Assembly: GCA_015056815.1 (NCBI GenBank)
Contig: SVFN01000003.1
Span: 96,021-160,020 of the forward strand
DNA length: 64,000 bases
Direction of reading: 5' to 3'
Source of the DNA: Lachnospiraceae bacterium
GTDB lineage: Bacteria; Bacillota; Clostridia; Lachnospirales; Lachnospiraceae
Shown here: piece by piece, positions 36,823 to 40,969 of the stretch
How the letters are laid out: each line of letters opens with the position of its first letter
Position numbering within the stretch: the first letter of the stretch is position 1
Notes under the pieces: generated by a model
What the model was told of the DNA's origin: nothing
The model's input: the letters and a program-made list of their open reading frames with translations, nothing else
Databases searched by the model: none
Program-made: the position numbers and the translations under genes

Positions 36823-38502
36823 TCAATTCAGAAAAAGTTCAATGACTTCTTTCATGCCGTCGTGGTTGTTGTCATGCTGCGTGATATAATTCGCATGGTA
36901 TTTCACTTCATCAGCGGCATTTTTCATGGCAACTCCGATCCCTGCTTTGCGGATCATGGAACTGTCGTTTGCAGCGTCTCCGCATGCTACGGCCTCTTCG
37001 ATCGGGATGCTAAGCTTCTCACAGAGGATTTCAACAGCCTTCCCCTTGGAGGCCTCTTTCATACAGCACTCCATATAGAAGGGACCGGAGTAGAAGGTGT
37101 GAATCTTTCCGTCTGTCAGATAATCCAGTTCGCGTGCAAAGGCATCCAGTCTGTCGTGTCCTCCCTCCATATCGATCGCAAAGAGCTTATAGGGATCTTT
37201 CGTCAGGGCGGCCGCCATATCCTCCACACAGATGTAAGGAAGATGGATGGCTCTGCGGTAAAAGTTAAGCTCATCGCCGGCTTTCTCCGTCACAATGATC
37301 TCGTCGCCGTTTTCGTCTGTATCATAAGTATGGATGTATACGCCATGTTTTTTGGCTGTGGCGATGACGGTCTTAACCAGATCTTTTGGCATCGTGATTT
37401 CATACACCGGTTTCCTTTGATCGCAGTCATAGATCAGAGCACCGTTATAGGAGATGATATAAGTGTTCTTTCTCAAAAGGTCCAGCTTCCCGGCTACTTC
37501 CAAGATACTGTCTAAGGGTCTGCCGCTGGAAAGCACCAGTTTCCCGCCTTTTTGCAGATAAGTATCTAAAGCAGCCTTAGTACCTGAGGACAATTCTTTC
37601 CGGTCATTTAACAGGGTGCCGTCCATGTCGGAAAAGAGGATGGCGCCACGGCGTTTACGAAATGCCTGAATCTCTTCTAAAATCTCATAGGGGATCTTTA
37701 GATTCCCGTAGCCGACGGCCAGATCCAGTCCCGGTTTGGTCGTGCCATGGAAATCAGAGCCGCCACTGATCAGAAGATGGTATCTGGCAGCAAGTTTTCG
37801 GATCTGCTGTTCTTCGCCGGCTGTATAAGTGGAGTAGATGGCCTCGATCGCCACAAGCCCGTCTTTTTTTAACGTCTGTACCAGTTTCTCCAGCCGCTCC
37901 TCGCTCATATGATACAGGATCGGATGCGCAAGAACCGGAACACCGCCGGAGCGCAGGATCAGATTCACGGCCTGTGACGGTGTTACTTTTTCGCGGGGCA
38001 GAAAGCAGGGGGCATGATCGCCGATGTAACGGTCAAAGGCTTCGCGCATGCTTCCGACATAGCCTTTCTGCCATAAATATTTGGCATAGTGGGCTCTGGT
38101 GAGGATCGCTTCCGGATATTCTGCCTGAAGGGCTTCGTAGGTAACAGGGACGCCGTATTCCTGTAGTCTGGCACACATCTTGTGATTACGGACATCGCGG
38201 GAATGCTGGAAGTCTGACAGATATTTCTGAAATTCCTCTCCTTCATAGTCAATATAAAGCCCGACAATATGAATATCCTTCCCCTCATACTCTGTGGAGA
38301 ACTCGATCCCGGGGATCACTTCGACGGACTGGCCTTTAGCTGCCTCTATCGCTTCGGCAATTCCTTCTGTTGTGTCATGATCCGTCAGAGCAAAAGCTCT
38401 CAGCCCTTTCTCTACGGCATAACGCACAAGCTCCGCTGGCGTGTAACTGCCATCGGAGCGGGTGGAATGCACATGTAAATCTACCATGTTCATTGTATTC
38501 AT
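36823..38502 (-). CDS. fusion protein: N-terminal PHP-domain phosphoesterase + C-terminal Cof-type HAD-IIB phosphatase
   Basis: VDLHVHSTRSDGSYTPAELV, ALTDHDTTEG (PHP); FSDMDGTLLNDRKELSSGT, KGKAVEILCEKLSI, ACGDAANDSSMI (HAD-IIB). Confidence 0.92.
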   Translation of the reverse strand: MNTMNMVDLHVHSTRSDGSYTPAELVRYAVEKGLRAFALTDHDTTEGIAEAIEAAKGQSVEVIPGIEFSTEYEGKDIHIVGLYIDYEGEEFQKYLSDFQHSRDVRNHKMCARLQEYGVPVTYEALQAEYPEAILTRAHYAKYLWQKGYVGSMREAFDRYIGDHAPCFLPREKVTPSQAVNLILRSGGVPVLAHPILYHMSEERLEKLVQTLKKDGLVAIEAIYSTYTAGEEQQIRKLAARYHLLISGGSDFHGTTKPGLDLAVGYGNLKIPYEILEEIQAFRKRRGAILFSDMDGTLLNDRKELSSGTKAALDTYLQKGGKLVLSSGRPLDSILEVAGKLDLLRKNTYIISYNGALIYDCDQRKPVYEITMPKDLVKTVIATAKKHGVYIHTYDTDENGDEIIVTEKAGDELNFYRRAIHLPYICVEDMAAALTKDPYKLFAIDMEGGHDRLDAFARELDYLTDGKIHTFYSGPFYMECCMKEASKGKAVEILCEKLSIPIEEAVACGDAANDSSMIRKAGIGVAMKNAADEVKYHANYITQHDNNHDGMKEVIELFLN

Positions 38503-40139
38503 TAATTCTCATCATCCTCTTTGTTTGCGGTGTAAACAGTTCTCTTACGTGCCATCTCATCACTGGCGAGATATTCGTCATAGGTCGTGACTTTATCGAT
38601 CATGGTGCCGTCCGGAAGGATTTCCATGATACGGTTTGCGGTTGTCTGTACCACCTGATGGTCGTGGCAGGAGAAGAGTTCCACACCGGGGAATTTTTTC
38701 ATGCCTTCGTTTAAAGCAGTGATGGATTCCATATCCAGATGGTTGGTAGGCTCATCAAAAATCAGGCAGTTCGCACCGCTGATCATCATCTTGGAAAGAA
38801 GACATCTTACCTTTTCTCCACCGGATAAGACTTTGACTTTCTTCACGCCGTCTTCACCGGCAAAGAGCATACGTCCCAAAAAACCGCGGACATACGTCAC
38901 ATCCTTGACGGGAGAATAGCCCATCAGCCAGTCCGTAATGGTGTAATCGTTGTCGAATTCCTGCGTATTATCCTTGGGGAAGTAAGCCTGTGAAGTGGTA
39001 ACTCCCCATTTGAAACTTCCCGCATCCGGCTCCATCTCGCCGGTCAGTATCTTAAACAATGTTGTCTTGGCGATCTCGTTGCTCCCGACAAATGCAATTT
39101 TGTCTTCGCGTCCGACGATAAAGGAAATGTTATCTAAGATCTTCTCACCGTTCAGGGTCTTGGAAATGCCTTCTACGGTCAGAACTTCGTTACCGATCTC
39201 ACGTTCCGGGCGGAAATCGATATAAGGATATTTACGGCTGGAGGGTTTGATCTCGTCCAGTTCGATTTTTTCCAGCGCGCGCTTTCTGGAGGTTGCCTGT
39301 TTGGATTTGGAAGCATTTGCGGAGAAACGGGAGATGAATTCCTGTAACTCTTTGATCTTTTCTTCCTTCTTTTTGTTGGCTTCCTTCATCTGACGGATCA
39401 GAAGCTGGCTGGACTCGTACCAGAAATCGTAGTTGCCGGCATAGAGCTGGATCTTACCATAGTCAATATCTGCGGTATGCGTACATACCTTATTTAAAAA
39501 GTAACGGTCGTGGGAGACCACGATGACGGTATTGTTAAAATCGATCAAAAACTCTTCGAGCCATGCAATGGCATCAAGGTCCAAGTGGTTGGTGGGCTCG
39601 TCCAGAAGCAGGATATCCGGATTGCCAAACAATGCTTTGGCAAGAAGTACCTTCACTTTTTCGTTGCCGGCCAGATCTGCCATCTGGGAGTAGTGAAGCT
39701 CGGTGCCGATACCAAGTCCGTTTAACAGGGATGCCGCATTGGATTCCGCTTCCCAGCCGTCCATCTCTGCGAATTCTGCCTCCAGTTCACTGGCGCGGAT
39801 GCCGTCCTCGTCGGAAAAATCTTCTTTGGCGTAGATCGCGTCTTTTTCTTTCATGATCTGGTAAAGACGTTCGTTACCCATAATGACGACATCGATCACG
39901 GGATATTCATCGTATTTAAAATGATCCTGCTCCAGAACGGAAAGGCGCTGGCCGGGGGTGATGGAAACATCTCCGTTGGTCGTATCAAGCTGGCCGGACA
40001 GGATCTTTAAAAATGTTGACTTGCCGGCGCCGTTGGCACCGATGAGACCGTAGCAGTTACCCTCCGTAAACTTGATGTTTACATCTTCAAATAATGCTTT
40101 TTTGCCAATTCGTAAAGTTACATTGTTTGCACTGATCAT
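38502..40139 (-). CDS. ABC-F family ATP-binding protein
   Basis: Two ABC domains (GANGAGKST; DEPTNHLDLDAI and DEPTNHLDMESI), no TM; ATG at 40139 with SD. Confidence 0.93.
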   Translation of the reverse strand: MISANNVTLRIGKKALFEDVNIKFTEGNCYGLIGANGAGKSTFLKILSGQLDTTNGDVSITPGQRLSVLEQDHFKYDEYPVIDVVIMGNERLYQIMKEKDAIYAKEDFSDEDGIRASELEAEFAEMDGWEAESNAASLLNGLGIGTELHYSQMADLAGNEKVKVLLAKALFGNPDILLLDEPTNHLDLDAIAWLEEFLIDFNNTVIVVSHDRYFLNKVCTHTADIDYGKIQLYAGNYDFWYESSQLLIRQMKEANKKKEEKIKELQEFISRFSANASKSKQATSRKRALEKIELDEIKPSSRKYPYIDFRPEREIGNEVLTVEGISKTLNGEKILDNISFIVGREDKIAFVGSNEIAKTTLFKILTGEMEPDAGSFKWGVTTSQAYFPKDNTQEFDNDYTITDWLMGYSPVKDVTYVRGFLGRMLFAGEDGVKKVKVLSGGEKVRCLLSKMMISGANCLIFDEPTNHLDMESITALNEGMKKFPGVELFSCHDHQVVQTTANRIMEILPDGTMIDKVTTYDEYLASDEMARKRTVYTANKEDDEN

Positions 40140-40522
40140 ATTGACTCCTTCTAACTCATAAATCAATTCTATATAGTAACATTTTGCAGCACACAGTGCG
40201 GCGGATCGGTGTGTGGTTATGGAAGTAACCGACGATAATACTCGGAAAAGAACGCACACCAATCTATATTCTACATGATAAAGAGAAAAATGTACAGTGC
40301 TGTCGGTAAAAATAATTAAAAAACCAATGAAAACCCGACTTATTGCGCCGTTCATGCGCATTTTGACTGGGATATTAACAAAAACATTCCTGTTTGCAAA
40401 AAACGGTGTATTTGCTCCGGATAGATCGTACAGAAGAAAGAATGTGATCAAAGGACGATCGAAGCGTGAAAAAGAAGATTGAAAGAAGGGCAGGTCTGAC
40501 GAAAAAAAGAAACACACAACGC

Positions 40523-40551
40523 AAAAATCCTCACCGGGGAGTGAGGATTTA
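40523..40551 (-). terminator. rho-independent terminator of yjfB transcript
   Basis: On the minus strand AAATCCTCAC-TCCCCG-GTGAGGATTT followed by TT. Confidence 0.7.
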
Positions 40552-40696
40552 TGAAGCGTATGTCAACCGCCGGGGAGCGGTTGATGTAACTAAGTGTAAA
40601 ATAGTTACTCCATGTATTACATGGTAAAAGGGGGAAAAGGGATTTGGCGGGGAACCAAATCCTATATTAAACGTACCGCTTGGATACGGTTAATAT
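40523..40696 (-). ncRNA. structured 3'UTR / candidate 3'UTR-derived sRNA with repeated UCCCC loops
   Basis: Hairpins at 40525-40550, 40563-40584, 40605-40627, 40640-40662 and 40664-40696; three share loop UCCCCG on the minus strand. Confidence 0.5.
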
Positions 40697-40702
40697 CAAT
40701 TA

Positions 40703-40894
40703 TTAAATTCTCAAATCGATGGAACCACCGAGATTCGGGTGAACGGAACGCTCCATGTCAGCCGCATTGATCATCTCGACCATCTTCTCACCGCTTGCTC
40801 TGGAAACATCGAGAGATTTACTGAGCATTGCAATGCCTACGTCTGAATTTGTTTTGATAGCGGATAAATTCATTGATAAACCTGCAATATCCAT
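40703..40894 (-). CDS. yjfB: YjfB family protein (putative motility protein)
   Basis: MDIAGLSMNLSAIKTNSDVGIAMLSKSLDVSRASGEKMVEMI...NLGGSIDLRI; SD AGGAGG 8 nt upstream. Confidence 0.8.
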   Translation of the reverse strand: MDIAGLSMNLSAIKTNSDVGIAMLSKSLDVSRASGEKMVEMINAADMERSVHPNLGGSIDLRI

Positions 40895-40940
40895 ATCCGA
40901 CACCTCCTAAGCGGTACCTTTCGTGTTGTTAATGTCAATA

Positions 40941-40969
40941 TATCACATCTGAAAATAAAAATCAAGACT
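40941..40969 (-). promoter_or_regulatory. putative sigma-A-type promoter of yjfB
   Basis: Minus strand TTGATT-N17-TATATT upstream of the gene; exact bounds approximate. Confidence 0.45.

Follow-up and report, generated by a model that had tools for sequence, protein, structure and literature searches.

A C-rich hairpin array behind yjfB as a candidate antisense small RNA of one Lachnospiraceae genus

The locus and its hairpin array

We analysed a 64,000-nt stretch of DNA from a Lachnospiraceae bacterium (assembly GCA_015056815.1, contig SVFN01000003.1, positions 96,021-160,020 of the forward strand; hereafter the window, in whose own numbering positions are given), and in it a run of RNA hairpins encoded on the minus strand directly 3' of the stop codon of yjfB, whose product matches the YjfB_motility profile (PF14070, E=8.8e-21). 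Six hairpins, named 0, A, B, C, D and terminator T, follow one another within about 170 nt (Table 1). A preliminary description of this DNA had counted five. The three inverted repeats with C-rich loops that it reported lie exactly where it placed them on the minus strand (40662-40640, 40584-40563 and 40550-40525), and the hairpin right behind yjfB (40664-40696) is recovered in the fold; what it drew as a hairpin at 40605-40627 is actually hairpin B, at 40624-40610, and hairpin C (40608-40586) had been missed. The three loops were also described as identical, which is true of UCCCCG in hairpin D and the terminator and not of hairpin A, where the loop is UUCCCCG.

Folded as RNA, the minus strand reaches -73.2 kcal/mol, with z = -8.7 against 200 dinucleotide shuffles. 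Its C-runs lie exposed: all four in the window are unpaired in the predicted fold at a probability of about 0.99 or more, as are the three in the sister species, which is the only other available genome of the genus (a Lachnospiraceae metagenome-assembled genome, isolate cow7.4, contig JAGKTY010000004.1), so that our comparison is one of two species. One of these runs, CUUUUCCCCCUUUU, forms a patch in the linker between hairpins A and B, and the preliminary description was right to regard this fourth C-rich stretch as unpaired. Across both strands of the window, CCCC loops occur in 3 of the 109 hairpins with a stem of at least 8 bp, and all three are those of the array, within 130 nt on one strand. 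The window as a whole is strongly asymmetric in C: its minus strand has 211 occurrences of CCCC to the 32 of the plus strand, and 43 of TCCCCG to 3.

The minus strand is supported as the strand of the RNA by the U-tract of the terminator, by the fold scores (z is a weaker -4.6 for the plus strand, again against dinucleotide shuffles), and by the terminator stem of the sister species, which holds a U-G pair; in a plus-strand RNA these two bases would be A and C and could not pair. How the RNA arises is a separate matter. A promoter scan around the array found no convincing internal promoter, and the consensus scan that picked out the putative promoter of yjfB returns promoter-like sites in chance-level number, so that this call is weak. 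The RNA may be a fragment of the yjfB 3' untranslated region (UTR), the long-lived tail of the yjfB mRNA, or a transcript with a promoter of its own.

Table 1. Features of the locus in window coordinates, with the basis of each call; RNA letters are written as DNA where T appears.
Feature	Position	Strand	Basis and remarks
Hairpin 0, right behind the yjfB stop	40664..40696	-	fold; sequence not kept, sister also has a hairpin there
Hairpin A, loop UUCCCCG, GGATTTGG-TTCCCCG-CCAAATCC	40640..40662	-	inverted repeat, fold, sister alignment
C-rich linker, single-stranded, CUUUUCCCCCUUUUA (CTTTTCCCCCTTTT at 40639-40626)	40625..40639	-	fold; identical in sister
Hairpin B, CCAUGU-AAU-ACAUGG	40610..40624	-	fold; conserved in sister
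Hairpin C, GUAACUA...UAGUUAC (DNA GTAACTA...TAGTTAC)	40586..40608	-	fold, sister alignment
Hairpin D, loop UCCCCG, TCAACCGC-TCCCCG-GCGGTTGA	40563..40584	-	inverted repeat, fold; not kept in sister
ACATACGCT, just upstream of the terminator	40555..40563	-	identical in sister
Intrinsic terminator T, loop UCCCCG, AAATCCTCAC-TCCCCG-GTGAGGATTT at 40550-40525, then U's	40523..40550	-	inverted repeat, fold
yjfB coding sequence	40703..40894	-	63 aa from ATG, AGGAGG upstream; the list of open reading frames starts it at GTG 40903
Putative yjfB promoter, TTGATT-17-TATATT, extended -10 TG	40937..40965	-	consensus scan
ABC-F ATPase, PRK15064-like, conserved downstream neighbour	38502..40133	-	profile match, synteny
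Promoter-like site of the ABC-F gene, TGTACA-17-TAGAAT	40268..40296	-	consensus scan; sister counterpart TTTACT-17-TAGAAT past the terminator

Constraint within the genus and absence beyond it

The sister species has the same gene order, yjfB, RNA and ABC-F, and a covariance-model search finds a single copy of the RNA in each of the two genomes. Over the 61 aligned columns of its core, which comprises hairpin A, the linker and hairpin B, mean column identity between the species is 96%, and hairpin A is unchanged in stem and loop save for the last loop base (G to U). The neighbouring ABC-F gene encodes a protein that is 92.6% identical, yet at its four-fold synonymous sites agreement drops to 82 of 197 (42%). 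Unconstrained DNA must therefore be near saturation between these genomes, so that the core is under strong selection, and the two alignments together show a strong nucleotide-level constraint on the RNA within the genus. Outside the core, the stem of the terminator has been replaced (AAAUCCUCAC/GUGAGGAUUU vs GAUCCAAGC/GCUUGGGUC) with its loop (U)UCCCCG kept, as UUCCCCG in the sister, and hairpin C keeps its GUAAC/GUUAC ends and shows one compensated change at an inner pair (U-A in the window, G-C in the sister). By sequence and fold, then, both species present exposed C-rich patches suited to pairing in loop A, the linker and the terminator.

Beyond the genus we find no such RNA. A covariance model built from the core gave real matches only to members of the genus among 397 Lachnospiraceae genomes, and none further in 392 genomes of the order; we inspected 20 other matches and rejected them all as unrelated, a good many being plain terminators. 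Nor does the array occur 3' of yjfB in 109 other genomes of the Lachnospiraceae, where a CCCC loop occurs at most once per region and a ACCCCCATA loop once in all. The preliminary description had proposed a covariance search of yjfB downstream regions across the family; the array is not a property that these regions share. No Rfam family of all 4227 searched with cmscan, LhrC and RsaE included, matches at its gathering score, and a relaxed scan (E up to 5) returned two cyano_het_sRNA matches only, far below threshold. The exact linker pattern has no match in viral contigs, and in GTDB genome contigs it recurs in the sister species only. Taken together, the model, yjfB and Rfam searches point to an RNA confined to the genus, whose place behind yjfB is incidental, rather than to a feature of the yjfB family, and on this sequence evidence it is a previously undescribed candidate; our literature search returned nothing relevant on Lachnospiraceae small RNAs (sRNAs) with C-rich Shine-Dalgarno pairing.

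An antisense reading and its rivals

The best reading, which we hold with a little more confidence than doubt, is that the array is an antisense regulatory sRNA of the minus strand, some 170-180 nt of structured RNA set between yjfB and its terminator, whose C-rich patches pair with G-rich Shine-Dalgarno regions. Its stable hairpins would keep several redundant patches exposed. Loop A offers UUCCCC, the linker CUUUUCCCCCUUUU and the terminator loop UCCCCG, to which hairpin D adds a fourth patch in the window species, and these patches could pair with Shine-Dalgarno regions of the form GGGGA or AGGGGGA and so block translation. We infer that the array is transcribed and released from the mRNA, and that it would choose and pair with particular mRNAs through these patches. 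Hfq (PF17209) was not detected in either genome by a search that does detect it in control genomes, and such pairing would therefore have to be Hfq-independent.

Several observations weigh against this reading, or at least against its simplest form. The stem and the UCCCCG loop of hairpin D are lost in the sister species, where a hairpin with an unrelated loop stands instead, and the identity of stem A exceeds what pairing by the loop alone would require. The preliminary description had seen the signature of selection on loops in stems that differ completely; such selection is supported in the terminator, in the linker and in loop A, where the stem is kept as well, and not in hairpin D. With two sequences only, no covariation statistic is possible. 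Finally, our pattern and duplex searches, which did not amount to a genome-wide target scan, found no convincing conserved target. In both genomes these searches covered AAGGGGGA before ATG, complements of an 18-mer of the linker and of a 14-mer of stem-loop A, and the duplex energies of flagellar start regions and those of the window. The search for AAGGGGGA a short way upstream of ATG gave 25 and 17 pattern matches in the two genomes, and among the genes with AAGGGGGA-N-ATG a single homologous pair is common to both, a weak one at 30% identity. Near-complements of the linker do not exceed the control rate, and no start site shared by the two genomes has a long complement of either the linker or stem-loop A. 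In a stretch of flagellar genes from each genome, the start codon of flgL is preceded in both species by GGGGG, which is unusual, and that of flgK by GAGGGGGAA, again with GGGGG, in the window species only, a lead towards an sRNA with CCCC heads. Neither was retained as a target, as duplex energies do not set them apart; the predicted pairing of flgL is ordinary for homologous pairs. Of the multi-loop antisense regulator proposed earlier, what stands is thus a C-rich minus-strand RNA under sequence-level selection, and what is missing is a conserved target.

It is also possible, though we think it unlikely, that the C/U-rich patches and stem A serve as repeated sites for an RNA-binding protein, with the RNA as sponge or scaffold. 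Such a role would suit the identity of stem A on both sides as well as in the loop, the recurrence of identical loops on different stems, and the failure to find a conserved antisense target. We know of no Firmicutes protein that binds UCCCC loops, and Hfq, as noted, was not detected. In other Firmicutes, moreover, C-rich loops are proven to act by pairing (PMC4132741, PMC5826253). The frozen stem A could be accommodated by the antisense reading if, by analogy with LhrC, its 5' side joins the final duplex, and protein binding would explain it equally well. A similarly doubtful alternative, very slightly behind in our estimate, is an ordinary stabilised 3' UTR, in which the run of hairpins protects and terminates the yjfB mRNA and has no function in trans. 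The array does lie directly behind yjfB with a terminator at its end, and the terminator scan marks hairpin 0 as a weak terminator-like site of its own, but stability alone does not need identical loops and linker, as kept in the 61 core columns against the synonymous background, and the other 109 yjfB genes have no such array behind them.

The remaining explanations we consider improbable. The preliminary description had itself raised, as an alternative, that the plus strand makes a CsrA-sequestering RNA with GGGGA loops. CsrA is encoded in both genomes (PF02599), and GGA occurs in three plus-strand loops and in the GGGGGA of the linker, but the objection then made, that this strand lacks a terminator, holds: on the plus strand of the window, scans show neither a terminator past the array nor a promoter-like site around it, and on that of the sister they mark nothing nearby as terminator-like except hairpin A and place the closest promoter-like matches outside the array. 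The weaker plus-strand fold and the A-C mismatch in the sister terminator argue in the same direction, and the array would be antisense to yjfB, all of which leaves this reading disfavoured. Less probable still, by a shade, is a leader or attenuator of the ABC-F gene. Attenuators are known from antibiotic-resistance ABC-F genes, and an ABC-F gene is retained downstream of the array in both genomes, but a strong terminator closes the array, and past it both species have promoter-like sites with the same -10 (TAGAAT) ahead of the ABC-F gene, which makes the array unlikely to be its leader. The distance to the ABC-F ATG also differs twofold (514 vs 264 nt), and the protein best fits the general ABC-F model PRK15064, with a score below cut-off, and falls far below the cut-offs of the resistance models. 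Equally remote is the idea that the conservation reflects a palindromic operator in the DNA or a micropeptide (MVKGGKGIWRGTKS) encoded on the plus strand. The 8-bp inverted repeat of hairpin A is indeed perfect, and in both species the plus-strand frame runs uninterrupted through the core, but conservation extends past the palindrome into the linker and hairpin B, the frame has no Shine-Dalgarno sequence and a 3' part that differs completely between the species, and all eight of its four-fold third positions are unchanged (expected at about 0.001 under the 42% background), which argues that coding is not the constraint. A single base differs in that frame (window 40612-40770, plus strand), and it leaves Arg as Arg (CGG/AGG); we judge the open frame a by-product of nucleotide conservation.

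Related RNAs and implications

The architecture that the antisense reading requires has an experimentally proven precedent in LhrC of Listeria, where Hfq is not needed for the effect on the target (PMC4132741). LhrC1-5 of Listeria monocytogenes (Rfam family LhrC) resemble the present RNA in their redundant C-rich sites, and they act on their target independently of Hfq, as it would have to (PMC4132741); they are compact and exist as several near-identical copies, whereas ours is a single-copy RNA of six hairpins from another phylogenetic class, with no Rfam match, downstream of yjfB and without a mapped promoter of its own. Of the bona fide sRNAs of Staphylococcus aureus, 48% carry a UCCC motif, frequently more than once (PMC5826253), and RsaC originates in the 3' portion of an mRNA, from which it is released (PMC9438474). 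These sRNAs (the RsaE/RoxS family and RsaC) share with the array an exposed and often multiplied C-rich seed (PMC5826253), but they differ from it in structure and show no sequence or covariance match. The CiaR-dependent streptococcal csRNAs offer a further likeness, an unpaired anti-Shine-Dalgarno stretch between two stem-loops of which the second is a terminator (PMC3091779); the present RNA has no link to CiaR and no [A/C]UCCUAAA element, and its CAU follows the C-run on the 3' side, an order that does not allow pairing with both a Shine-Dalgarno sequence and its AUG. With RNAs of the CsrB/RsmZ type it has in common GGA in repeated plus-strand hairpin loops and a genome that encodes CsrA, but the strand evidence favours the minus strand, the sites are few and the window has no plus-strand terminator. 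Elsewhere in the window, on the plus strand, lie three Clostridiales-1 RNAs (RF01699; 18460-18624, 18649-18813 and 24924-25032), two of them near-identical tandem copies and the third without an internal part, and a T-box leader (RF00230; 46594-46964).

Our verdict is that the RNA behind yjfB is a candidate sRNA of a known functional kind, strongly constrained and not described before. We find it tempting, and rather a long shot, to speculate that it founds a class of RNAs confined to a single genus of Lachnospiraceae, in bacteria that lack Hfq. Tied to a motility gene and bearing several C-rich heads, such an RNA would either silence a number of mRNAs at once, its heads being interchangeable, or titrate a new protein that binds C-rich RNA. 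If the antisense reading is true, it would suggest that the UCCC pairing strategy of Listeria and Staphylococcus is used also in gut clostridia that lack Hfq, and the locus, with LhrC-like redundant C-rich heads beside a motility gene, is compact and open to testing.
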